From a virus, in the IMG/VR virus record IMGVR_UViG_3300028573_000030, positions 1 through 40,670 of that record: 40,670 nt of DNA. The stretch is one strand, 5' to 3'. Position 1 is the stretch's first letter. The number at the start of each line of letters is the position of its first letter. A model generated the notes under the pieces. The model did no database searches. It saw nothing but the letters and a program-made list of their open reading frames with translations, and was not told the DNA's origin. This document shows, in pieces, positions 4,288 to 24,837 of the stretch. The position numbers and the translations under genes are program-made.

Positions 4288-5112
4288 ATGAAAAAAATAT
4301 TAGCGTTATCAGCAATTGCATTAACATTATCAGCATGCAGTAAAGTGCCAGCAGGATATCGAGGGGTTATTGTTAATTTATACGGGAGTGATAAAGGTGT
4401 TGCTGAACAATCTGTGGGCGTTGGTCGTTATTATACCGGTTGGAATAGCGAGCTTTACCTTTTCCCTACCTTTTTACAAAACTATTCTTGGAAAGACGAA
4501 CAAGCCATTACTATGCAAACTTCAGAGGGTTTATCTATACGCACTGACGCTGGTATCACTTACAGTATACAACCTGATAACGTGGTTAAAGTCTTTCAAA
4601 AATATCGATTAGGCATTGATGAAATAACGAATACTTTCTTGCACAATATGGTACGAGATGCCATGAACGAAGTTGCATCAACTATGACTGTTGAGCAGAT
4701 TTATGGTGCGCAGAAAGAAGCATTTATCAGCAAGGTAAATGAAATTGTTAAAAAGCAAGCCGCTGATACTGGCATTGAAGTTGACAAGATTTATTTGGTC
4801 GGTTCATTTGATTTGCCTGCCACCGTAGTCAATTCTATTAATTCAAAAATTCAAGCTAGCCAAAACGCAATGAAAGTTGAAAATGAAGTCGCTACTGCAA
4901 GAGCTGAAGCGCAAAAGACTATCGTCGAAGCGCAAGCAAGAGGTCAACAGATATTGATTAATGCTGAGTCGCAAGCAAAAGCTAACAAGATATTGGCTGA
5001 ATCTTTGACGCCAGAATTTGTTAACTATCAAGCAATCTTAAAGTGGGATGGCAAATTGCCAACCATGACAGGTTCTAATGCGGTGCCATTTGTTAAGGTC
5101 GATAACAAATGA
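4288..5112 (+). CDS. SPFH/band 7 (prohibitin-like) lipoprotein
   Basis: The 274-residue protein has a lipoprotein signal with lipobox LSAC, making Cys17 the acylated residue. Ser follows at +2, which by the usual rule favours outer-membrane sorting. An SPFH domain follows (about 20-180, from VPAGYRGVIVNL). A helical, Ala/Glu-rich coiled region comes next (about 190-240, EVATARAEAQKTIVEAQARG), as in prohibitins and HflK/HflC, and the C-terminus ends in VPFVKVDNK. SPFH proteins form large membrane rings and control proteases or membrane domains. A phage copy exported as a lipoprotein could alter the envelope, protect against superinfection or modulate FtsH. Those roles are inference. It is coupled to a small membrane protein by a 4-base overlap. 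Confidence 0.85.
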   Translation: MKKILALSAIALTLSACSKVPAGYRGVIVNLYGSDKGVAEQSVGVGRYYTGWNSELYLFPTFLQNYSWKDEQAITMQTSEGLSIRTDAGITYSIQPDNVVKVFQKYRLGIDEITNTFLHNMVRDAMNEVASTMTVEQIYGAQKEAFISKVNEIVKKQAADTGIEVDKIYLVGSFDLPATVVNSINSKIQASQNAMKVENEVATARAEAQKTIVEAQARGQQILINAESQAKANKILAESLTPEFVNYQAILKWDGKLPTMTGSNAVPFVKVDNK

Positions 5113-5470: not shown

Positions 5471-5605
5471 ATGAAAGTAGCAATATTATATAACATGACT
5501 GCACTAGAAGTAGATGACGAGCTAGAAATAGGAGATACAGTAAAAGATGATGAAGGAATTGAACGTGAAATAATGAGTTTCTGGGAATCTGAAGAAAAAG
5601 GTTAG
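5471..5605 (+). CDS. 44-residue acidic protein
   Basis: The ORF starts MKVAILYNMTALEVDDELEI and is strongly acidic (about 14 Asp/Glu in 44). GGAGGTGAG precedes the start at good spacing, one of the best ribosome sites in the window. It follows a structured RNA. DNA-mimic or inhibitor proteins of phages are often this small and acidic, but nothing specific is recognised. It could also be a substrate for the nearby ATP-grasp/GNAT pair; that is speculation. Confidence 0.65.
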   Translation: MKVAILYNMTALEVDDELEIGDTVKDDEGIEREIMSFWESEEKG

Positions 5606-5998: not shown

Positions 5999-6442
5999 AT
6001 GAAATCTATTATGACATTACCTAACATGATGCCCACTGAAGAAATAGAATGGATTGATATAACGGGCTTGAAGCGTGCAACAATTATGGATGATGAAGTT
6101 CATGTAAGTTATTTAAAATCACCAACTGATACTTCTGCAAAACCATTATTATGCTTTAAGTTTGGCATAAAAATATTAGAGCATCTCAAAATTGATGTGA
6201 AGCATGATCGATTAGGCGTGCAGCATAATAAATATGATTTTCATGATTTCTTACTTTTAAAAGCATCTAAAGGATATAAAGTAAGTAAACACGCTGAATC
6301 TACAGTGCATCAAATATCATTTAGATATCGTGATAATAAAATGCCACAATTTAAATCTGTATTAGTGGGCGCTTTTTTCAATAAAAATGGTACGATACGC
6401 CTACGCTTACCCGATGTGGAACCAGTTAATAGTGATGATTAA
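5999..6442 (+). CDS. Hypothetical protein, 147 residues
   Basis: The start has GGAG seven bases upstream. The soluble product shows mixed charge, a central KFGIKILEHLKIDVKHDRLG stretch and a C-terminal GTIRLRLPDVEP. It looks like an alpha/beta fold, but no family is recognised. It is first in a tightly packed set leading to the GNAT and ATP-grasp genes (8-base overlap with the next ORF), so it may act with them. Confidence 0.75.
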   Translation: MKSIMTLPNMMPTEEIEWIDITGLKRATIMDDEVHVSYLKSPTDTSAKPLLCFKFGIKILEHLKIDVKHDRLGVQHNKYDFHDFLLLKASKGYKVSKHAESTVHQISFRYRDNKMPQFKSVLVGAFFNKNGTIRLRLPDVEPVNSDD

Positions 6443-6650
6443 AACACAACCGTGGAAAATTAGATTAGACAAAGGTCGTTGGCTTATCCAAAAGGGTAAG
6501 TCAATTTCCGGCATTTTATCTATGTCAGATTTAAAGCGAGCAGATGATCATCATCTTGCTTACATTATCGAATCTTTAATGAATCTCGCTCATCAATCTG
6601 CAAGAGAAGTGAAATGGCATGTACACCCTGAGCAAACCAACATTGAATGA
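6435..6650 (+). CDS. Hypothetical 71-residue protein
   Basis: I use the ATG at 6435 (MIKTQPWKIRLDKGRWLIQK) because it overlaps the previous stop by 8 bases. An ATG at 6387 would run 56 bases into the preceding gene. The product is basic in its first half, then helical with His residues (DDHHLAYIIE). No domain recognised. It overlaps the GNAT gene start by 32 bases, indicating co-translation. Confidence 0.6.
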   Translation: MIKTQPWKIRLDKGRWLIQKGKSISGILSMSDLKRADDHHLAYIIESLMNLAHQSAREVKWHVHPEQTNIE

Positions 6651-7050
6651 TATTAAAGAACTATTAAAAATAGAAAATGAATGCTTTACCTATGACCGAT
6701 TAGGTTACTATCATTTTTACTATCAGATTCAGCAACGACAAATATTTATTGTAAGCAATCTAAAAGAAATCATGGGCTATATTAGCATCAGATTTCGCAA
6801 AAATTATGTTTACATTGCATCGCTTGCTATCAAAAAGCGATATCGCAAAAAAGGTATTGCTAGTTTTATGCTAGCAACATTAGAAAAATCCTACCCTATT
6901 ATGAAGCTTGATTGCAAAAGGCATAATATTAACTTTTATCATAAATTAGGTTACAAACAGGTTTGCATTAAATATGATTATTATACTGATGGCGAGGACG
7001 CTATCACTATGGAAAAGGACATCACATGCCAAAAGGCAGGCCAAGATTAG
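6619..7050 (+). CDS. GNAT-family N-acetyltransferase
   Basis: The 143-residue protein is a single GNAT domain. It has an N-terminal ENECFTYDRL segment (20-29), beta strands around IMGYISIRFR, and the acetyl-CoA-binding motif RKKGIA (76-81) before a helix. INFYHKLGYK (104-113) follows, and it ends with YYTDGEDAITMEK. The ENxCFxxDRL and YYxDGxDAxxMEK signatures match the GNAT half of chromosomal GNAT/peptidase-C39 fusion proteins that sit next to a RimK-like ATP-grasp gene in many proteobacteria. Here the C39 peptidase half is missing. It overlaps the ATP-grasp gene by 25 bases. Substrate unknown. Confidence 0.85.
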   Translation: MYTLSKPTLNDIKELLKIENECFTYDRLGYYHFYYQIQQRQIFIVSNLKEIMGYISIRFRKNYVYIASLAIKKRYRKKGIASFMLATLEKSYPIMKLDCKRHNINFYHKLGYKQVCIKYDYYTDGEDAITMEKDITCQKAGQD

Positions 7051-7880
7051 GGATTTTATACGATGAAGCAGCAAAATATTCGCCATCCAATATAGAGGCC
7101 ATCGAACTATTTCGAGAGAGCGCTTTTAATCACGGATTGCATCCTATGATGCTACTCAAAGATGATATTGAGTATCTCGATCAATGTAGTGGCTTATTTA
7201 TCAGAGATACCACTCACCCAAATAACTACACTTATCAATTTGCAACACGTGCAGAGCAACTAAAAATCCCATGCATTGATAGCAGTATTAATATTATGCG
7301 AGGTTGTAATAAAATATGGCAATGGGAATGCTTTAAAAAATATAATATCCCGCATCTCAATACCCAATTAATTTTTCCACACGCTAACATTGAGTTAGAT
7401 TATCCATGCGTCTTAAAAATTCCTGATAGCTGTTTTTCCCAAGGCGTATTTTTAGTTAACAATAAATATGAACTATTAAAACTGTTAAAAAGTAATTCCG
7501 AAATTAATACACAATTATTGATGCAGCCATATATGCCAACCGAGTTTGATTGGCGTATTTGCATCTTTAAAAGAAAAATATTATTTGTGGTAAAATATTA
7601 TATGGCAGATGATGATTGGAAAATCATAAAATATGACAGACAAGGTGGATATATTAATGGACGCCATGAAGCCATTACTAATCTATCATTGCCAATTTAT
7701 CATGCTGCGAATCAATGTTTACAATTCTTAGATAACGGCCTTTATGGTATAGACATCAAAGAAATCAATCATCAACCTTATGTCATCGAAATTAATGACA
7801 ATCCAAGTATCGATCATGGCATTGAAGATACGATCAAAGAAGATAAAGTTTATGACACAATTATTAGATCATTTACATAA
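7026..7880 (+). CDS. RimK-like ATP-grasp ligase
   Basis: The 284-residue enzyme shows GLFIRDTTHPNNYTYQFATR (56-75), a linker with NKIWQWECFKKYNIP, and the ATP-grasp core. In the core are VLKIPDSCFSQGVF (about 129-142, Lys131 for ATP), PTEFDWRI (171-178), LYGIDIK (239-245) and the metal-binding VIEINDNPSID (253-263). This is the C-terminal catalytic half of bacterial RimK family proteins of about 480 residues; their N-terminal RLAN domain is absent. ATP-grasp enzymes join a carboxylate to an amine, and RimK adds glutamates to a protein tail. With the GNAT it forms a probable peptide- or amino-acid-modifying pair. Its 3' end runs into a hairpin terminator. Confidence 0.9.
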   Translation: MPKGRPRLGILYDEAAKYSPSNIEAIELFRESAFNHGLHPMMLLKDDIEYLDQCSGLFIRDTTHPNNYTYQFATRAEQLKIPCIDSSINIMRGCNKIWQWECFKKYNIPHLNTQLIFPHANIELDYPCVLKIPDSCFSQGVFLVNNKYELLKLLKSNSEINTQLLMQPYMPTEFDWRICIFKRKILFVVKYYMADDDWKIIKYDRQGGYINGRHEAITNLSLPIYHAANQCLQFLDNGLYGIDIKEINHQPYVIEINDNPSIDHGIEDTIKEDKVYDTIIRSFT

Positions 7881-7902
7881 CGCCTCATGGATAGAGGCGT
7901 TA
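7878..7902 (+). terminator. Hairpin terminator after the ATP-grasp gene
   Basis: TAACGCCTC (7878-7886) pairs with GAGGCGTTA (7894-7902) around a 7-base loop, and the stop codon of the ATP-grasp gene is its first three bases. No T-run follows, so termination may be partial. It separates this operon from the next, promoter-driven secreted-protein genes. Confidence 0.6.
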
Positions 7903-7978
7903 CCTAGGACAAGGCAGATGATTGATTAAAATCTTCTGTGAGCGCGCATTATATGTGTTCACAATCAAAAAGCAATAG

Positions 7979-8006
7979 TTGACATTAGTTTTCTTTTCGG
8001 TAGACT
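7979..8006 (+). promoter_or_regulatory. Promoter for the two secreted-protein genes
   Basis: TTGACA (7979-7984), a 16-base spacer and TAGACT (8001-8006) form a good sigma70 promoter 35 bases before the start at 8042. Being bounded by hairpins at 7878 and 9126, it makes the two exported proteins an independent transcription unit, as expected of a moron. Confidence 0.65.
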
Positions 8007-8041
8007 TCCCGACGTTATTAAAAACAATATGGAGAGTAGAA

Positions 8042-8416
8042 ATGAAAAAATTATATGCATTTTTATGCATTGCGGGATTGAGCATATCGGCTCATGCGGC
8101 TGTCAATGGTATCAGTCATCATTCACGAGCTAATTGTGGCGGATTCAATGAATCAGTTAGTTGGGATTTATTACACGCTCATTGGTTCTGGGTTGATAGC
8201 AATCATTACAATGCTACTACGGGCGATATTCTTTGTTCTATGGTAAGTGACTGGCAAAATACATGGCGTAATGCTCAATACCATGCAGCGGAAGGATATG
8301 GTGGCTGGGGAGTAGAAGGATGGCATTGGATGCCAGATTCACGTGGTGCGCCTGTGCTTCAACAACATGAAGTTGTTTATGACTGTTCTATTTATGATGG
8401 TTGGTGGAATTATTAA
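8042..8416 (+). CDS. Secreted Trp/His-rich protein, function unknown
   Basis: I choose the ATG at 8042, with GGAGAG upstream, because it begins a clear signal peptide (MKKLYAFLCIAGLSISAHA, cleavage after AHA). The mature part has about 105 residues and is unusually rich in Trp, His and Tyr (for example GGWGVEGWHWMPD and a final GWWNY). It has three Cys that could partly pair in the periplasm. Clustered aromatic residues suggest carbohydrate or cell-wall binding, which is inference. It shares a transcription unit with the next exported protein. Confidence 0.75.
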   Translation: MKKLYAFLCIAGLSISAHAAVNGISHHSRANCGGFNESVSWDLLHAHWFWVDSNHYNATTGDILCSMVSDWQNTWRNAQYHAAEGYGGWGVEGWHWMPDSRGAPVLQQHEVVYDCSIYDGWWNY

Positions 8417-8433
8417 TTTATAGGAAAATAACA

Positions 8434-9108
8434 ATGAAAAAATTATTATTATGTTCGATTTGCGTTACTTCATTAAATTCATTTGCAGCCCCAATGCCTG
8501 TTCCAACTCAGCCGTTATCAATTGTGCCTTTAAGCCAAATAAATATGCCTGCTCAGTTTAAGAAAGAATTCGATAAGAATTTATTATCGGAAAGCAAAAA
8601 TGGTTTCATTGAATCTGATGAAAGCAAATATGTTAAATTCTTTTTGAATTTGCCAAAGACTGCTCCTAAAGAAATGCTTGATTTTCGTGGCGCTGATGTT
8701 ACGGATACGCATTTGAAGAAAACAAGTAAAGAAATTAATCTTGCTTTTAAAATCAATTGGAATGAGCCTAAAAATATTATCGGTTATGCTGCTATTAATG
8801 GCTACAATAATGGATGGACTGGTCTTAGGACATTTTTCACCGATCCAACTTTAGGTGTATGCTCATATTCATATCTTGATTTTGTATCTTCTCAAGGCGC
8901 TGCTATTTTGCCGAAAGAATATACTGAGTATCTGGTTAATAAAAAACCATCCAATAAAACTATTACTGGCAGTTATGCAGGTGGTTTTATTTATACTGTT
9001 AACTGGTACACGGCAAAATCAGCCAATACATTGGAATGCGCTAATATGAAGTTTGATAAATCATTATTGGATAACGTCATTTTAATGGCTAACAAAATAG
9101 ATAAATAA
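8434..9108 (+). CDS. Secreted protein, 224 residues, function unknown
   Basis: The start at 8434 has an AGGA site and gives a signal peptide ending NSFA before APMP. The mature protein has two Cys far apart (about residues 149 and 206) that could form a disulfide. It contains a beta-rich C-terminal part (TITGSYAGGFIYTVNWYTA). No catalytic motif is visible. It follows the Trp/His-rich secreted protein by 17 bases and precedes a strong terminator. The pair could alter the cell surface or exclude other phages; no family is recognised. Confidence 0.75.
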   Translation: MKKLLLCSICVTSLNSFAAPMPVPTQPLSIVPLSQINMPAQFKKEFDKNLLSESKNGFIESDESKYVKFFLNLPKTAPKEMLDFRGADVTDTHLKKTSKEINLAFKINWNEPKNIIGYAAINGYNNGWTGLRTFFTDPTLGVCSYSYLDFVSSQGAAILPKEYTEYLVNKKPSNKTITGSYAGGFIYTVNWYTAKSANTLECANMKFDKSLLDNVILMANKIDK

Positions 9109-19038: not shown

Positions 19039-19202
19039 TGAAATTCGAATGGGAAGAAATTGATCGAAAAAGTTATGGTTATACTGAAAGGGCAAAGGTT
19101 TTTGGTGGTTGGCTCATAAGAGTAGTAGATATTGGAGATGTTTGTTATTTTGGCATGACATTTGTTCCTGACCATAACCATGAATGGGTGATTAATGCCT
19201 GA
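19038..19202 (+). CDS. Hypothetical 54-residue protein
   Basis: The ORF starts in a TAATG overlap and reads MKFEWEEIDRKSYGYTERAK, then a beta-like VFGGWLIRVVDIGDVCYFGM and a His-containing end (PDHNHEWVINA). It resembles small phage proteins of the 'W.....GGWLVR' type. It overlaps the phosphoesterase by 8 bases. Confidence 0.6.
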   Translation: MKFEWEEIDRKSYGYTERAKVFGGWLIRVVDIGDVCYFGMTFVPDHNHEWVINA

Positions 19203-19734
19203 AACCTGGTTTACTAGCGATACCCATTTCGGTCATGCTAACATTCTGAAATACGAGCAAGAAGCTCGACCTTTTACTTCATTGGAAGAAATGCATGAAT
19301 GCCTTATTGAACGGTGGAACATGGTGGTGGCTGACGCTGATACTGTTTATCACGTTGGTGATTTTTGTTTTGGCAAGCACAATATATCAATTGCTTCACG
19401 GCTTCGCGGTAAGAAGAAGCTTATACTGGGGAACCATGATACTTACCCTACTGCTAATTATCTTAACTTTTTTGATAAGCTGTATGGTGTGCTTTTCTGG
19501 CGACGATGCATCATCAGCCATGTGCCTTGTCATCCCAATGGAATCGGACAGCGTTGGATGATGAATATTCATGGGCATTTGCATTCTAAATTAGTCCAAG
19601 AAGCGGTATTTAATCAAGGTAAAATCATTTCTTATATTGACGACCCCAACTACTTCAATGTATCAGTCGAACAACATAATTTGACGCCAGTCAATGCGGA
19701 TGTGATTATGGAGAGAGTTAAAGCGTTAGATTAA
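19195..19734 (+). CDS. Calcineurin-like metallophosphoesterase
   Basis: The 179-residue enzyme has the complete metal-binding set: D-T-H (9-11), G-D (55-56), G-N-H-D (79-82), a His in CIISHVP (about 109) and H-G-H-L-H (126-130). It is a compact phage-type member and its substrate could be a phosphoester in RNA, DNA or a nucleotide. Position directly before terminase is common in phages. It may remove 2',3'-cyclic or end phosphates; this is inference. Confidence 0.9.
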   Translation: MPETWFTSDTHFGHANILKYEQEARPFTSLEEMHECLIERWNMVVADADTVYHVGDFCFGKHNISIASRLRGKKKLILGNHDTYPTANYLNFFDKLYGVLFWRRCIISHVPCHPNGIGQRWMMNIHGHLHSKLVQEAVFNQGKIISYIDDPNYFNVSVEQHNLTPVNADVIMERVKALD

Positions 19735-19748
19735 CATAGGATTTTCTC

Positions 19749-21308
19749 ATGGATGAGAGAGAGCGAGCAATACGCATTAGATTGCGTGATGATTTTATTC
19801 ACTATTCGACAAGATGTTTAAAGATCAGAGACAAAGACGGTAATATCGTACCGTTTACCTTAAATAAAGCCCAATTACATCTTCATAAAATGGTTGAACA
19901 GCAACGTGCTGCAACCGGCCGTGTGCGCGTCATTATTGTTAAAGGTCGTCAACAAGGCATGTCCACTTACACTGGTGGGCGATTTTATCATCAAGTAACG
20001 CAATCCAAAGGTAAGCGCGTATTTATTTTAACGCACGAAGATCAGGCTACGAATAACTTATTCGACATGGTTAAGCGTTATCATGAACACTGCCCAGATA
20101 TCATGAAGCCGACCACGCGTGCATCCAATGCAAAAGAATTAATTTTCTCGAAATTAGATTCTGGTTATATGCTTGGTACGGCTGGCAATAAATCTGTTGG
20201 ACGATCTGCAACGATTCAGTTGTTCCATGGTTCCGAAGTTGCCTACTGGCCTAATGCTGAGGAACATGCCAAGGGTATTTTGCAATCTGTTCCGCGTGAT
20301 CGATCGGAGATATTCCTAGAATCAACAGCCGATGGTATTGGTAATTACTTTCATGAACAATGGCAATTAGCTGAAGAAGGTATTTCGCAATTCATGCCAA
20401 TATTTATTCCGTGGTATTGGAATGATGAATATAAAGCGCCATTGGCTGAAGGATTTACTTTAACTGATGAAGAGATAGAGTTAAAACGCATATATAGTCT
20501 AAACGACAATCAAATCATGTGGCGACGTGAAAAGATTGTGGAAAATAGTCATAAGGGTTTACCTGGTTTGCGCGCTTTTATGTCGCAGTATCCTTGTACG
20601 CCGACTGAAGCATTTCAAACGACTGGCGAAGATTCATTTATCACACCTAGTGAAGTAATGGCCGCACGTAAATGCAATGCTGAACCGGTTGGCGCATTAA
20701 TCGTAGGTGTTGATCCTGCGCGCTTTGGTGATGATCGCACATCGATAATTAGGCGCAAAGGTCGTGTTGCTTATGGATTAAATAGCTTTCACAAGAAAGA
20801 TACTATGTCGATTGCTGGCATGGTGCATCGCATTATTAATGATGAATCGCCTACTCGTGTATGTATTGACATTGGCGGACTTGGTGCCGGTGTTTATGAT
20901 CGCTTGAAAGAATTGGGTCATGCTGATGTGATTGTCGCGGTCAATAGTGCTGAAACTGCGTTGAATGAAGACCGCTATTGCAATAAGCGCTCTGAGATGT
21001 GGGGATTGATGCGGCAATGGTTATTAGAGCAACCGGCACAAATTCCTGATATGGATACCTTGCATGCTGATTTGTGTGGACTCAGGTATGAACACGATTC
21101 CAAAGATCGATTGAAGATGGAAAAAAAGAGCGATGCCAAAAAGCGCGGGATTAGATCACCAGATGAAGCTGATGCATTAGCATTAACATTTGCATTGCCA
21201 GAAAAAGCCTTGACTGATTCCAGTAAGAAGAAATATGATGCGATGGCAAAATCTATGTTAAGCAGTTCTAACCAAATCGACCGACTGAAGAAATCAGCAT
21301 ATAAATAG
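19749..21308 (+). CDS. Terminase large subunit
   Basis: The 519-residue protein contains the ATPase and nuclease of the packaging motor. A Walker A-like VKGRQQGMST is at 64-73. The Walker B strand SEIFLESTADG (186-196) has Glu191 as catalytic base. The nuclease motifs are VGVDPARFGDDRT (Asp322), VCIDIGGLGAG (Asp374) and SPDEADALAL (Asp472-Asp475). It drives DNA into the head using ATP and cuts concatemers; with circular ends this fits headful packaging. Its small subunit lies 5.8 kb upstream, an unusual distance. Confidence 0.95.
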   Translation: MDERERAIRIRLRDDFIHYSTRCLKIRDKDGNIVPFTLNKAQLHLHKMVEQQRAATGRVRVIIVKGRQQGMSTYTGGRFYHQVTQSKGKRVFILTHEDQATNNLFDMVKRYHEHCPDIMKPTTRASNAKELIFSKLDSGYMLGTAGNKSVGRSATIQLFHGSEVAYWPNAEEHAKGILQSVPRDRSEIFLESTADGIGNYFHEQWQLAEEGISQFMPIFIPWYWNDEYKAPLAEGFTLTDEEIELKRIYSLNDNQIMWRREKIVENSHKGLPGLRAFMSQYPCTPTEAFQTTGEDSFITPSEVMAARKCNAEPVGALIVGVDPARFGDDRTSIIRRKGRVAYGLNSFHKKDTMSIAGMVHRIINDESPTRVCIDIGGLGAGVYDRLKELGHADVIVAVNSAETALNEDRYCNKRSEMWGLMRQWLLEQPAQIPDMDTLHADLCGLRYEHDSKDRLKMEKKSDAKKRGIRSPDEADALALTFALPEKALTDSSKKKYDAMAKSMLSSSNQIDRLKKSAYK

Positions 21309-21317
21309 GGAATTATC

Positions 21318-21638
21318 ATGAAAACTTTAAAATTAGCGGAAGCCTTATTGCGACGAAAAGAGTTACAAGAAAAAGTGGAAGTTTTGAAAAAATTTAAAGA
21401 TACGCAAGTCTATTATGAGATTCGTGGTCAACGTGTCAAAGTCACTGATGGTATTGAAGAGATTAATGCAAACTATCCAAAGCTTGATTTATCGCAAGTC
21501 ACCGCTGAGTTTGATTGGGCTGCAAGACAATTACGATTAATTGATGCGGTCATCCAACAAGCAAACTGGACTTGTGAGGTTTCAGTTGATCCAATGGTAA
21601 TGCAAGATTTTGAAAGAAAGGTTATCATTAAAGCGTAA
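21318..21638 (+). CDS. Small coiled-coil protein (DIP1984-like)
   Basis: The 106-residue protein starts KLAEALLRRKELQEKVEVLK and ends with a second helix (AARQLRLIDAVIQQANWTCE), the two-helix plan of DIP1984-type proteins. The match is weak, so the name is tentative. It follows terminase by 9 bases, a position often held by head-associated or unknown genes. No terminator follows directly. Confidence 0.65.
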   Translation: MKTLKLAEALLRRKELQEKVEVLKKFKDTQVYYEIRGQRVKVTDGIEEINANYPKLDLSQVTAEFDWAARQLRLIDAVIQQANWTCEVSVDPMVMQDFERKVIIKA

Positions 21639-21753
21639 CAAAATTAGCTTGGGGCGAATGGAAAGGCCGCTAGGAGCCTTAATCCTTAGTGAATTGCAAT
21701 TCACGTAGCCGTGGTTGGAAACGTTATCAGCCAAACTTCTTTGGGAAGTTAAT
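21639..21753 (+). other. Structured intergenic region before tRNA-Ile
   Basis: No ORF is credible here. It contains AAGGC/GCCTT (21663-21667/21676-21680), a perfect 16-bp palindrome GTGAATTGCAATTCAC (21689-21704), GGTTGG/TCAGCC (21713-21718/21727-21732, with wobbles) and AACTTC/GAAGTT (21734-21739/21745-21750). Four consecutive hairpins just upstream of a tRNA echo the cluster at 5.3-5.9 kb. Together with the tRNA and repeats this 364-bp gap (21639-22002) is the longest gene-free stretch. Confidence 0.55.
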
Positions 21754-21827
21754 AAATGATTAGCTCAGCTGGTTAGAGTACATGCTTGATAAGCGTGAGG
21801 TCATCGGTTCGATTCCGATATCACTAG
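21754..21827 (+). tRNA. tRNA-Ile (anticodon GAT) with imperfect acceptor stem
   Basis: D arm GCTC-AGCTGGTTA-GAGT, anticodon stem CATGC/GCGTG with loop TTGATAA (anticodon GAT), variable AGGTC and T arm ATCGG-TTCGATT-CCGAT are all normal. The acceptor 5' strand AAATGAT (21754-21760) pairs with ATCACTA (21820-21826) at only 5 of 7 positions (A-A and A-C mismatches). Discriminator G; no encoded CCA. Either a working tRNA tolerating mismatches, or one that is decaying. Confidence 0.8.
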
Positions 21828-21841
21828 TGTTAATGCTAACT

Positions 21842-21917
21842 CCGATTATGCGAACATTGAATTGCTAATTTCCGATTGACTGACTATGAGAACATGAGTA
21901 GCCCGATTATGAGAACT
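21842..21917. repeat. Three degenerate direct repeats before the portal promoter region
   Basis: CCGATTATGCGAACAT (21842-21857), a split copy TCCGATT plus CTATGAGAACAT (21871-21877, 21884-21895) and CCGATTATGAGAACT (21903-21917) share CCGATTATGnGAAC. Spacing is about 30 bp. They lie 50-125 bp upstream of a TATAAT box and may be regulator-binding sites. Confidence 0.6.
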
Positions 21918-21966
21918 ACGATTAACCAATCCATTGACCAAGCTATTATTATGAATATTTTGACTA

Positions 21967-21995
21967 TATAATGTCCTTGAACTTGTTGACAAGGA
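21967..21995 (+). promoter_or_regulatory. -10 box and hairpin over the portal ribosome site
   Basis: TATAAT (21967-21972) lacks a good -35. Right after it TCCTTG (21974-21979) pairs with CAAGGA (21990-21995). The right arm contains AAGGA, the Shine-Dalgarno of the portal gene, so the site would be masked when folded. This could reduce early translation of the portal. Confidence 0.5.
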
Positions 21996-22002
21996 TAGTC
22001 AC

Positions 22003-24114
22003 ATGGAAGTGGCGAAGTATAACCCCGATAAACTCGAACGGATTAAAACAACCGTTCGACGCGCACATGATTATTTCAAACCTAATTACGACCGTTATAA
22101 TGAATTTAGACGGTTTGTTTTCGAATCATCTTTAAGAGAAGAAGAAATCACTTTATTGATTACGTTGAGCAAACCTCAACTAGAATTTAATATTCTGGAA
22201 GCTTATATATCACGATTACTTGGTGAATTTAGCAAACAAGAACCAGATATCGAAGTTAATGCTGATGACCAAAACACCGCAGATCCTGCAACTATTAAAG
22301 TTTTAGAGCAACATTTAAGACATACCTTAACAGATTCTGCTAATTATCATACGCGATATGAAGTTTACAAAGATTTGTTATCTGGTGGTTTTAGCACATT
22401 AAAAGTTAAAACTGATTATGCAAATTCAATGAGTATGGATCAAATTATTACGATCGAACGCTGCTTTGATCCGACATTATGTGGATTTGATCAGCTTGCA
22501 AGATATTCACATAAAGGTGATGGACGATTTTGTTTTGAATTATTTCCCATGTCTAAAGAAGATTTTGAAGATGAATATCCTGATGTATCACTTGAAGAGA
22601 TGAATTTCAGACGTGATTTTGCTGGATTTAATTGGTCATACTTAAATGACACAACGGAAATATTAGTTGTTGCAGATTTCTATGAAAAGAAATCGAAAGA
22701 CGAGCAAATCATGAAGTTGAGTGATGGTAAAGTTGTTACTAAAAAGCAATATGCCAAAATGGAAAAAGAGTGGAACGATTTCGCGCAGATGCCAAGACCA
22801 ATCGGCAAGATGCGTACCACAAAAATTGAAACTATTCATCGCACTAGGTTAATTGAAAATAAAATACTTGAAGAAGTTGAAACGGACTTTTCATATTTAC
22901 CTTTAATATTTGTTGATGGTAATTCTGTTTTAATTAAAACGCCAAAAAATGGTAATGTTCGACAGGTAACAAGACCTTATGTTTATCATGCAAAAGGCGC
23001 TCAACGATTAAAAAATTATGCTGGTATTGCATTAGCTAATGAAATTGAAAATACAGTACAGCATAAGTTTATGATTAAGAAAGAAGCATTGCCAAAAGAA
23101 GAAGAATGGCTGGCGGCTATTAAAGATGTTCAGAAACCTTCTAACATTATTGTTAATGCATTTTATGAAGAAAATCCAGATCAACCAATTCCTGATCCGA
23201 TTAGAGAAGTTGTCAAGATTCCAGCGCCACCTGAAATTGCACAAGCTTTTACTGGTTCTGATGCATTGATTCAAAATATTTTAGGATCGTATGATGCATC
23301 ATTAGGCATAAACAACAATCAGTTATCAGGGGTAGCATTAGTAGAAGCAGCATCACAATCAAATGCGGCTGCTATGCCATATATTGTGGGTTACTTACAA
23401 GGATATCAACGTGGCGCTCAAATCTATACGGATTTATTGCCGAAATATTATACCACACCTCGTACACTTCCTATTATGGATAATGACGGACAAAAGTCAT
23501 ATGTTAAAATTCATGGTGAAGATGGCATTAATATGTTTTATGACGCAAATGTCTTGAATGTTGTTGTTAAAGCTGGTGCTTCATTCCAGGTACAGAAATC
23601 TCGCACAATCATGATGGTAAAAGAGATGATGGGAATGTCGGAGCTTTTCGCACAATTTATTGCAGAGAAAGGTCTAAACTTTGTATTGGATAACATGGAA
23701 GGTAAAGGCATCGAGCAATTAAAACAAATGGTAGATTCATGGTTGCAAGAGTTGCAGCAACAGAAACAAGCAGCACAACAAGCGCAACAGCAAGAAGCGC
23801 AAAACAATCCTGCAATGATTAAAGCACAAATTGACATGCAGAAGTTGCAACAACAATCAGTTAAAGATCAAATGCAATTTAAAGTTGATATGATGAAACT
23901 TCAACAAGAAGAACGTAAAGTATTAGCGGATGTTAGAATATCGCATGATGAGAATGCGGTTGAACTTGTTAAAGCGCAAACGGAACGCTTTGCTAAACAA
24001 GTTGATCTTGAAATTAAAAAGCATGACATGCACCATAATCATCGAATGGATATTCATAATGCTAAACAGGCTATGAAAGAATCTGCAAGAGAAGGAGCGC
24101 GTAATGGAGCGTAA
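22003..24114 (+). CDS. Portal protein (P22 gp1-like)
   Basis: At 703 residues it is close to P22 portal (725). The N-terminal third contains NEFRRFVFESSL and PQLEFNILEAYISRLLGEFS, as in this family. The central KFMIKKEALPKEEEWLAAIK and GIALANEIENTVQ segments belong to the wing. The C-terminus (about 580-703) is a Gln-rich long helix (ELQQQKQAAQQAQQQEAQ) ending in a basic tail, the barrel region of P22. It forms the 12-subunit ring for DNA passage and terminase docking. Start has AAGGA at 8 bases, possibly masked by a hairpin. Confidence 0.93.
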   Translation: MEVAKYNPDKLERIKTTVRRAHDYFKPNYDRYNEFRRFVFESSLREEEITLLITLSKPQLEFNILEAYISRLLGEFSKQEPDIEVNADDQNTADPATIKVLEQHLRHTLTDSANYHTRYEVYKDLLSGGFSTLKVKTDYANSMSMDQIITIERCFDPTLCGFDQLARYSHKGDGRFCFELFPMSKEDFEDEYPDVSLEEMNFRRDFAGFNWSYLNDTTEILVVADFYEKKSKDEQIMKLSDGKVVTKKQYAKMEKEWNDFAQMPRPIGKMRTTKIETIHRTRLIENKILEEVETDFSYLPLIFVDGNSVLIKTPKNGNVRQVTRPYVYHAKGAQRLKNYAGIALANEIENTVQHKFMIKKEALPKEEEWLAAIKDVQKPSNIIVNAFYEENPDQPIPDPIREVVKIPAPPEIAQAFTGSDALIQNILGSYDASLGINNNQLSGVALVEAASQSNAAAMPYIVGYLQGYQRGAQIYTDLLPKYYTTPRTLPIMDNDGQKSYVKIHGEDGINMFYDANVLNVVVKAGASFQVQKSRTIMMVKEMMGMSELFAQFIAEKGLNFVLDNMEGKGIEQLKQMVDSWLQELQQQKQAAQQAQQQEAQNNPAMIKAQIDMQKLQQQSVKDQMQFKVDMMKLQQEERKVLADVRISHDENAVELVKAQTERFAKQVDLEIKKHDMHHNHRMDIHNAKQAMKESAREGARNGA

Positions 24115-24277
24115 AGTAACATGGAATGATTTGCGAGAAGCATCTCAACAAGAGTTAAAGCAAATCTATAAGTTATCTGATCGACAGCTCGAACGACAAG
24201 TGCGTCGTCATATGGATGGAGCGAATGCAACTGAACGTCGAAAACTTTATGAAACTGTTTATGGGAAGAGACGATAA
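24104..24277 (+). CDS. Hypothetical 57-residue basic protein
   Basis: The ORF starts inside the end of portal (GGAG upstream), reads MERKVTWNDLREASQQELKQ and is helical and basic (ERQVRRHMD). Its stop overlaps the next start (TAATG). First of three small basic genes between portal and scaffold. Function unknown. Confidence 0.6.
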   Translation: MERKVTWNDLREASQQELKQIYKLSDRQLERQVRRHMDGANATERRKLYETVYGKRR

Positions 24278-24411
24278 TGCCACTTAAAAAATCGAAATCA
24301 AAAGCAGCCTTCAAGGAAAACATTAAGGCTGAAATGAAAGCGGGTAAACCGCAAAAGCAAGCTGTTGCGATTGCCTATTCTGTTAAACGAAAAGCAGGGA
24401 GAAAGAAATGA
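24277..24411 (+). CDS. DUF6496-like small basic protein
   Basis: The 44-residue protein reads MPLKKSKSKAAFKENIKAEM and continues KAGKPQKQAVAIAYSVKR, then Lys-rich end. The N-I-x-x-E-M-K-A-G-K-P-x-K-Q-A-V-A-I-A pattern is typical of the DUF6496 phage family, seen near portal or head genes. Binding to nucleic acid is plausible from charge. Overlaps neighbours on both sides. Confidence 0.8.
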   Translation: MPLKKSKSKAAFKENIKAEMKAGKPQKQAVAIAYSVKRKAGRKK

Positions 24412-24563
24412 AACCAAATCCATATGGTAAGCGTCAAGCAAAGAACTCAAAGAAAGCAGTTAGCCGGACTGAGAAAGCAGTAAAGCCAGTTGCTAAAGAT
24501 ACGAATAAAACAAGACGTTCGCATAACATGCCGAAAGGTCGAATTAGCCAACCTAAAGGATAA
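24408..24563 (+). CDS. 51-residue Lys-rich protein
   Basis: The ORF starts in an ATGA overlap, MKPNPYGKRQAKNSKKAVSR, and is Lys/Arg-rich with a PKGRISQPKG end. It looks disordered and may bind DNA or the head interior. Likely real by overlap and composition; no family. Confidence 0.55.
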   Translation: MKPNPYGKRQAKNSKKAVSRTEKAVKPVAKDTNKTRRSHNMPKGRISQPKG

Positions 24564-24570
24564 CTTTAAT

Positions 24571-24837
24571 ATGGCTTTGAAACCGATGTTTGATCAGCAC
24601 TTTTCATCTTGGAATGAGACTGAAGAATTGGAAGCATATAATCGTGATTTTAATGAACGCATGGCAAAACGCCCAGTTGGTAATAAGACAACTTGCAAGA
24701 AATGTGATGGTAAGGGATTTGAAAAAATAACGTTTCTTAATTCATTTTCTTTAAGTCCTAATCTTTTTGCTGATTATCATGATAAATATCGATGCTTAAA
24801 TTGCAACGGAACTGGCTATGTCACTCCTACAACTTAA
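24571..24837 (+). CDS. Zinc-knuckle protein (two CxxCxGxG)
   Basis: From 24571 (AAGGA upstream) the 88-residue protein contains CKKCDGKGF and CLNCNGTGY, a DnaJ-type zinc site, in its C-terminal half. The N-terminal half is acidic and helical (SSWNETEELEAYNRDFNERM). It overlaps the next zinc-containing gene by 20 bases; the two could act together. Confidence 0.7.
   Translation: MALKPMFDQHFSSWNETEELEAYNRDFNERMAKRPVGNKTTCKKCDGKGFEKITFLNSFSLSPNLFADYHDKYRCLNCNGTGYVTPTT

Follow-up and report, generated by a model that had tools for sequence, protein, structure and literature searches.

The sequence analysed here (the window) is an entire IMG/VR virus record of 40,670 bases. It carries phage genes for a large terminase, a portal, a capsid-type ORF, Sak4-like and Gam-like recombination proteins and an endolysin, and its positions 19161-24617 are 100% identical to a 5,457-base contig (L092) from another IMG sample, which indicates that the same phage was assembled twice. 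Two adjacent enzyme genes, one for a GNAT-fold acetyltransferase and one for a RimK-like ATP-grasp ligase, lie among the following features:

5999-6442, + strand: ORF, first of an overlapping chain; no family above the cut-off and no phage relative
6435-6650, + strand: 71-aa ORF overlapping the genes on both sides; without assigned function
6619-7050, + strand: GNAT-fold N-acetyltransferase, 143 aa; kin of the GNATs encoded beside RLAN-RimK ligases
7013-7019, + strand: AAAAGGA, ribosome-binding-like, within the GNAT gene and 6 bases before the ATP-grasp start; read directly
7026-7880, + strand: RimK-like ATP-grasp ligase, 284 aa; core of the RLAN-RimK subfamily without the RLAN domain
7752-7796, + strand: stretch encoding D243, E255 and N257, which are predicted to bind metal (YGID...EINDNP) and align to the RimK GVDI/EVN motif
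7878-7902, + strand: 9-bp perfect hairpin at the ligase stop codon; no T-run

Four genes form one overlapping chain (5999-6442, 6435-6650, 6619-7050 and 7026-7880) with a strong hairpin at its end, and this arrangement makes it likely that the four are co-transcribed. The GNAT and ligase genes overlap by 25 bases (7026-7050), and stretches of the AAGGA/AAAGG type are also found upstream of the ligase start in three related phage contigs described below (L088, L095 and L096). The hairpin region (7872-7915; MFE -15.2 kcal/mol, z = -4.4) is possibly a transcript end or stabiliser; the hairpin is not among the sites of a consensus terminator scan, and promoter and terminator consensus counts over the window were no better than in shuffles. 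An SPFH/Band-7 lipoprotein is encoded near the pair (4288-5112; phrog_200, 3e-75), and directly downstream are two small proteins (7997-8416 and 8434-9108) whose N-termini resemble signal peptides and which match no family significantly.

The original prediction, a 143-aa GNAT overlapping a 284-aa ATP-grasp protein by 25 bases, was exact in coordinates and strand, and the motifs it quoted are all present in the two translations. It had further suggested that the enzymes may act on, or work with, the products of the ORFs at 5471, 5999 and 6435, and this found no support: none has a homologue at any pair-bearing locus, the ORF at 5999 also has none in 50,697 phage records, and 5999 and 6435 are mere overlapping neighbours.

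Identity of the two enzymes

The ligase matches the Pfam RimK model (PF08443) with E = 3.7e-7 (30.4 bits, cut-off 21), and generic family libraries see it only as a RimK-like ATP-grasp domain. A tblastn search of plasmids gave 11 near-full-length matches at 30-37% identity, all RimK-family proteins of Azospirillum, Tistrella, Legionella, Pseudomonas and Aeromonas, and full-length matches to RimK-family proteins reach E values down to 2e-51; the same type of search found no match in 50,697 annotated phage records. The subfamily motifs DWR, YG.D.K, E.NDNP and ED, which are invariant or nearly so across the alignments, are all present in the phage protein. Identity with the ribosomal RimK is ruled out by these relatives and by the model scores, which are 14.2 bits for the S6-ligase equivalog PRK10446 (cut-off 331) and 39.5 bits for the RimK subfamily TIGR00768 (cut-off 143.4). 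The R2K Pfam model is not among the ligase hits up to E = 1. The RLAN domain (PF14401) is absent from the ligase and from the entire phage record, in a search that matched the Photobacterium positive control. By its sequence, then, the ligase belongs to the RLAN-RimK subfamily but fails one of its defining features, the RLAN domain itself.

The GNAT matches Acetyltransf_1 (PF00583) with E = 1.6e-11 (44.9 bits, cut-off 20.7), and annotated phages contain only distant relatives of it. It has the fold and the C-terminal YY...DA motif in common with the RimI/Ard1 N-terminal acetyltransferases but remains below the RimI equivalog cut-off (TIGR01575; 49.9 bits against 86.4). Against an HMM of RimK-linked cellular GNATs, the window protein scores 77.6 bits, as compared to 34.5 bits against an HMM built from 19 Legionellales RimIs; the four phage GNATs score 77.6, 98.4, 103.4 and 134.7 bits against the former and 34.5-65.9 bits against the latter, with the linked-GNAT HMM higher in all four. 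An ordinary RimI is thus ruled out by the equivalog and HMM scores. In the GNAT tree, the Legionellales RimIs form one group (100/100) and the cellular linked GNATs another (95/99), with the phage GNATs between them; this tree is unrooted and has several long branches, so the HMM scores are the better evidence. C39/DUF3335 (PF11814) is absent from the GNAT and from the entire record (the Photobacterium positive control again matched), and the GNAT fold fills all of the 143-aa protein, leaving no room for it. Consistent with the original prediction, then, the best profile matches of the two proteins are neither ordinary RimI nor ribosomal RimK, and scores, relatives and the ligase tree place their nearest kin in the bacterial pair of a GNAT, with or without C39, and an RLAN-RimK.

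Both enzymes are probably active. In the ligase, residues K96, K131, Q167, D175-W176-R177, D243, E255 and N257 are invariant in the four phage copies, which are mutually 43-56% identical and have open frames. Codon-position identity among these copies is highest at the second position and lowest at the third (0.72, 0.63 and 0.38 for the second, first and third positions between the window and L095), a pattern that points to constraint at the level of the protein. AlphaFold2 models, computed from alignments from which the plasmid loci were left out, are confident (pLDDT 94.0 for the ligase and 95.2 for the GNAT). In Foldseek searches the GNAT model matched Ard1, RimI, Naa10 and Naa50, and the ligase model matched RimK-RpsF (5zk6), ArgX (3vpb, ArgX with LysW) and D-Ala ligases (Ddl); in a library of predicted virus structures, the ligase matched other ATP-grasp proteins, with identities of 8-18%. 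Of the four phage GNATs, that of the window diverges most: it has Asp98 at a position where nearly all relatives have Glu, a Glu that makes up the catalytic pair of RimI together with Tyr107, and it has a three-residue deletion close by, so its activity could be altered.

The pair in other viruses

Single-sequence scans of viral records found no relatives; those in IMG/VR came from alignment-based scans, which yielded L088-L091 first and then L095 and L096, a further such scan adding none. The same overlapping GNAT/ligase pair is present in three other viral contigs, with ligases 54% (L095), 51% (L096) and 43% (L088) identical to that of the window, so that the two genes, far from being unlinked in all relatives, are linked in three other phages. 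The four phage ligases form one clade (SH-aLRT 99), and pair order, strand and overlap are equal in four phages that have few other genes in common. L095 and L096 each have several further genes in common with the window; in the part of L088 that was read, the common genes are only the pair and a single ORF of 100 aa. By inspection, L088 has contractile-tail-baseplate-like ORFs upstream of the pair and a tyrosine-integrase-like gene downstream, whereas the window has head genes of another type, and the cassette therefore appears to cross phage types. The pair sits outside the structural genes, close to recombination, regulation or integrase genes, and its ligase was not found in three other phages that have the 100-aa ORF, which argues that the pair is accessory.

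This 100-aa ORF, which carries a conserved HExxE motif, is carried by at least seven of the phages found here, has no Pfam family and no annotated-phage relative, and adjoins tail-fibre-type genes in the window, L088 and L096. It is found at:

window, 516-818, - strand
L088, 7017-7322
L096, 9042-9344
L095, 1-235
L149, L150 and L154

RimK cores without RLAN also occur without a nearby GNAT, at L089 6085-7020 and L090 7971-8906, where the genes on either side resemble terminase and portal genes of a different type of phage. A quick tree sets the L090 ligase apart from the four-phage clade, but the likelihood was higher when the five were constrained to group together, so the RLAN-less ligases of viruses may have one origin or two. 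A further core of the same subfamily (36%) lies at L091 3-530, its N-terminus cut by the contig end; by inspection, that contig has T4-like helicase and recombination exonuclease genes. Neither RLAN nor DUF3335 was found anywhere in the window or in four other viral records, some of which may be fragments, and Photobacterium has both.

Legionellales were considered as a host, and the genome search did not support this. Among 143 Legionellales genomes we found about 80 RLAN-RimK-type frames (about 480-517 aa, long enough for RLAN) and no RLAN-less copy of the phage type, and a search without a positive control did not find the 100-aa ORF in these genomes or in 369 gammaproteobacteria.

Cellular relatives of the ligase

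Scanning a single genome from each species with a profile gave at least 574 confirmed RLAN-RimK stretches, from which the best-scoring 80 were kept; the cellular loci discussed here are therefore not a balanced sample. An RLAN region is present in 84 of the 86 sampled cellular RimK-core loci, the other two being cut by contig ends, and in all 81 complete cellular ORFs sampled; two representatives were confirmed by Pfam. A GNAT lies beside RLAN-RimK in 32 of the 86 loci, and is fused to C39/DUF3335 in 20 of these, stands alone in 11 and is part of an in-frame GNAT-RLAN-RimK fusion in one, a single 649-aa protein of Croceivirga radicis (L083 4957-6906). The phage pair had been described as two catalytic cores that lack C39 and RLAN. 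Both domains are indeed absent, but loss of C39 is not specific to phages, as the 11 solitary cellular GNATs and the one fused to RLAN-RimK demonstrate, and judged from the sequences sampled the phage-specific trait is the missing RLAN domain.

The view of the bacterial system as a GNAT(-C39) pair likewise requires amendment, as it describes one of two locus types. In the second, the ligase is accompanied by a GCS2 ligase (42 of the 86), a stand-alone C39 peptidase (35) or an N-formylglutamate amidohydrolase (31), partners of this kind being commoner than a GNAT. No sampled locus has both a GNAT and a GCS2 ligase (Fisher p = 6e-14), although when relatedness is considered, only 4 independent pairs fall on supported branches and a sign test is not significant. 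This pattern suggests that GNAT and GCS2 occupy the same slot, a second step that would acylate an amine or form an amide. Among cellular RimKs, that of L008 is closest to the phage clade; it is accompanied by GCS2 and by no GNAT, and the phage GNAT may thus have been acquired separately from the ligase. A locus with RLAN-RimK, GCS2 and N-formylglutamate amidohydrolase is also found on a 9-kb circular plasmid record of Legionella adelaidensis (L002 41-3232), which includes chromosomal-type genes such as fur and dapF.

Discussion

The phage pair most closely resembles the bacterial system in which a GNAT-C39 protein (PF00583 and PF11814) is encoded next to RLAN-RimK (PF14401 and PF08443), as in Azospirillum, Vibrio, Shewanella and Tistrella. 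The two have in common both enzyme subfamilies, the adjacency and often the overlap of the genes, a ligase core of 30-37% identity and the invariant DWR, YG.D and NDNP residues, but the phage ligase is without the N-terminal RLAN region (about 185 residues) and the phage GNAT without C39. As compared to the loci of C39, RLAN-RimK, GCS2 and N-formylglutamate amidohydrolase found in Legionella, Thiobacillus, Pontibacter, Planctomycetota and others, the ligase subfamily is the same, and the phage clade is nearer to this branch (SH-aLRT 90/85, with long branches); however, the phage has a GNAT instead of GCS2, no adjacent C39 or amidohydrolase, and no RLAN.

More distant relatives are the RimK/RimB and RloABC systems of bacteria, which pair ATP-grasp ligases with proteases (PMC12239564), and although the fold and the metal- and ATP-site motifs of the S6 glutamate ligase encoded with RimB in the Pseudomonas rim operon (PMC12239564) are retained in the phage ligase, the latter scores far below the S6-ligase equivalog cut-off, has another motif set and adjoins no RimB-type protease. 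A ligate-then-cap logic was proposed by Burroughs et al. in 2015 for operons of R2K-type ATP-grasp ligases and GNATs (PMC4431377), some of which occur in phages (PMC4431377, PMC7824862). Both the idea of ligating a peptide and then capping it with an acyl group and the occurrence in phages are thus alike, but the present ligases are a different ATP-grasp clade that no R2K Pfam model hits. LUZ24-like phages likewise carry amide-forming enzymes, in a cluster of amidoligase, glutamine amidotransferase and ATP-grasp genes for which no acetyltransferase is mentioned (PMC3890496), and the present ligase found no tblastn counterpart among the annotated phage records. Phage ATP-grasp and amidoligase clusters are therefore already known (PMC3890496, PMC7824862), and the category itself is not new. 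Apart from the 2009 amidoligase review (Iyer et al.), which our literature search did not cover, we found no paper on RLAN in combination with a GNAT and none on a GNAT and an RLAN-type RimK paired in phages, and the search returned no functional study of bacterial RLAN-RimK systems. N-acetylglutaminylglutamine synthetase is likewise a GNAT plus an ATP-grasp enzyme; no NCBIfam hit up to E = 1 for either phage protein bears that name, although it is uncertain whether the library contains such a model.

We propose that the two genes form an accessory ligate-and-cap module whose product is an N-acetylated conjugate of an amino acid or peptide, and we would give this reading as a whole an even chance. 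That the pair is functional is highly probable, and that its chemistry combines a ligase with an acetyltransferase is probable, whereas a small capped conjugate as the product is a more tentative proposal. Active, coupled enzymes descended from bacterial RLAN-RimK/GNAT systems would have been retained by phages as a two-gene cassette. The ATP-grasp enzyme would use ATP to activate a carboxylate and couple it to the amino group of an amino acid or short peptide, and the RimI/Ard1-like GNAT would acetylate the substrate or product at its free alpha-amine, yielding an N-acetyl-capped conjugate. The gene overlap and the Croceivirga fusion suggest a common substrate for both enzymes, the cellular partners (C39 peptidase, GCS2 ligase and N-formylglutamate amidohydrolase) suggest a small, peptide-like product, and the location outside the structural genes, with the patchy distribution, argues for manipulation of the host over virion building. 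One could go further and envision an autonomous, RLAN-free phage system in which the GNAT does the job of GCS2 and a new N-acetylated peptide conjugate is made in the infected cell, where it might, for example, compete as a substrate, act as a signal or modify the envelope so that other phages are blocked; this extension we consider decidedly unlikely.

The target may be either a small peptide, to which the peptidase, GCS2 and amidohydrolase partners point, or a protein, to which the fold matches point. In the latter case, the ATP-grasp enzyme would add residues to a host or phage protein, at its C-terminus or on a side chain, much as RimK extends ribosomal protein S6, the GNAT would acetylate the N-terminus of a protein, and the infecting phage would thereby redirect translation or transcription of the host. 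RimI, Ard1, Naa10 and Naa50 are all protein N-terminal acetyltransferases, RimK-RpsF and ArgX-LysW represent enzymes acting on proteins, phage GNATs such as Rac of phiKMV modify the RNA polymerase of the host, and host proteins are the predicted targets of modification by phage R2K ligases (PMC7824862). We nevertheless find protein modification somewhat unlikely: both equivalog cut-offs are missed (49.9 of 86.4 bits for RimI and 14.2 of 331 bits for RimK(S6)), the cellular partners are those expected for small peptides and glutamyl compounds, and no small-protein neighbour of the pair is conserved across the four phages.

Alternatively, the pair could serve self-protection or counter-defence by inactivating a peptide-like toxin, an aminoacyl compound or a signal through N-acetylation and ligation. 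GNATs are common detoxifiers of small amines, and an accessory spread (four phages with the pair, and none found in three more that have the 100-aa ORF) outside the structural genes would suit such a role. To our knowledge, however, ligases are not typical detoxifiers, and with no defence-family match and no known toxin or defence gene adjacent, we regard this explanation as very unlikely. It is less probable still that two unrelated accessory enzymes with separate functions are neighbours by chance; GNATs are abundant in phages and the tree does not firmly nest the phage GNATs in the cellular RimK-linked group, but order, strand and overlap are constant in four phages with few other common genes, and both partners trace to one cellular gene pair. 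Least credible of all is that these are decaying, inactive remnants of a bacterial operon acquired by a phage, as the missing RLAN and C39 domains and the Asp substitution and three-residue deletion near the catalytic site of the window GNAT might indicate, given the open frames, the retained catalytic residues, the protein-level constraint over ligase copies only 43-56% identical and the confident predicted folds.

Bacterial RLAN-RimK systems are widespread, a single genome scan having confirmed at least 574 stretches, and a natural two-gene version of 427 residues without RLAN or C39 would reveal their catalytic minimum and ease expression testing of the product. The GNAT-or-GCS2 pattern provides a concrete hypothesis for the second step. 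The pair would also add a new enzyme type to the genes with which phages bring about host takeover or lysogenic conversion.
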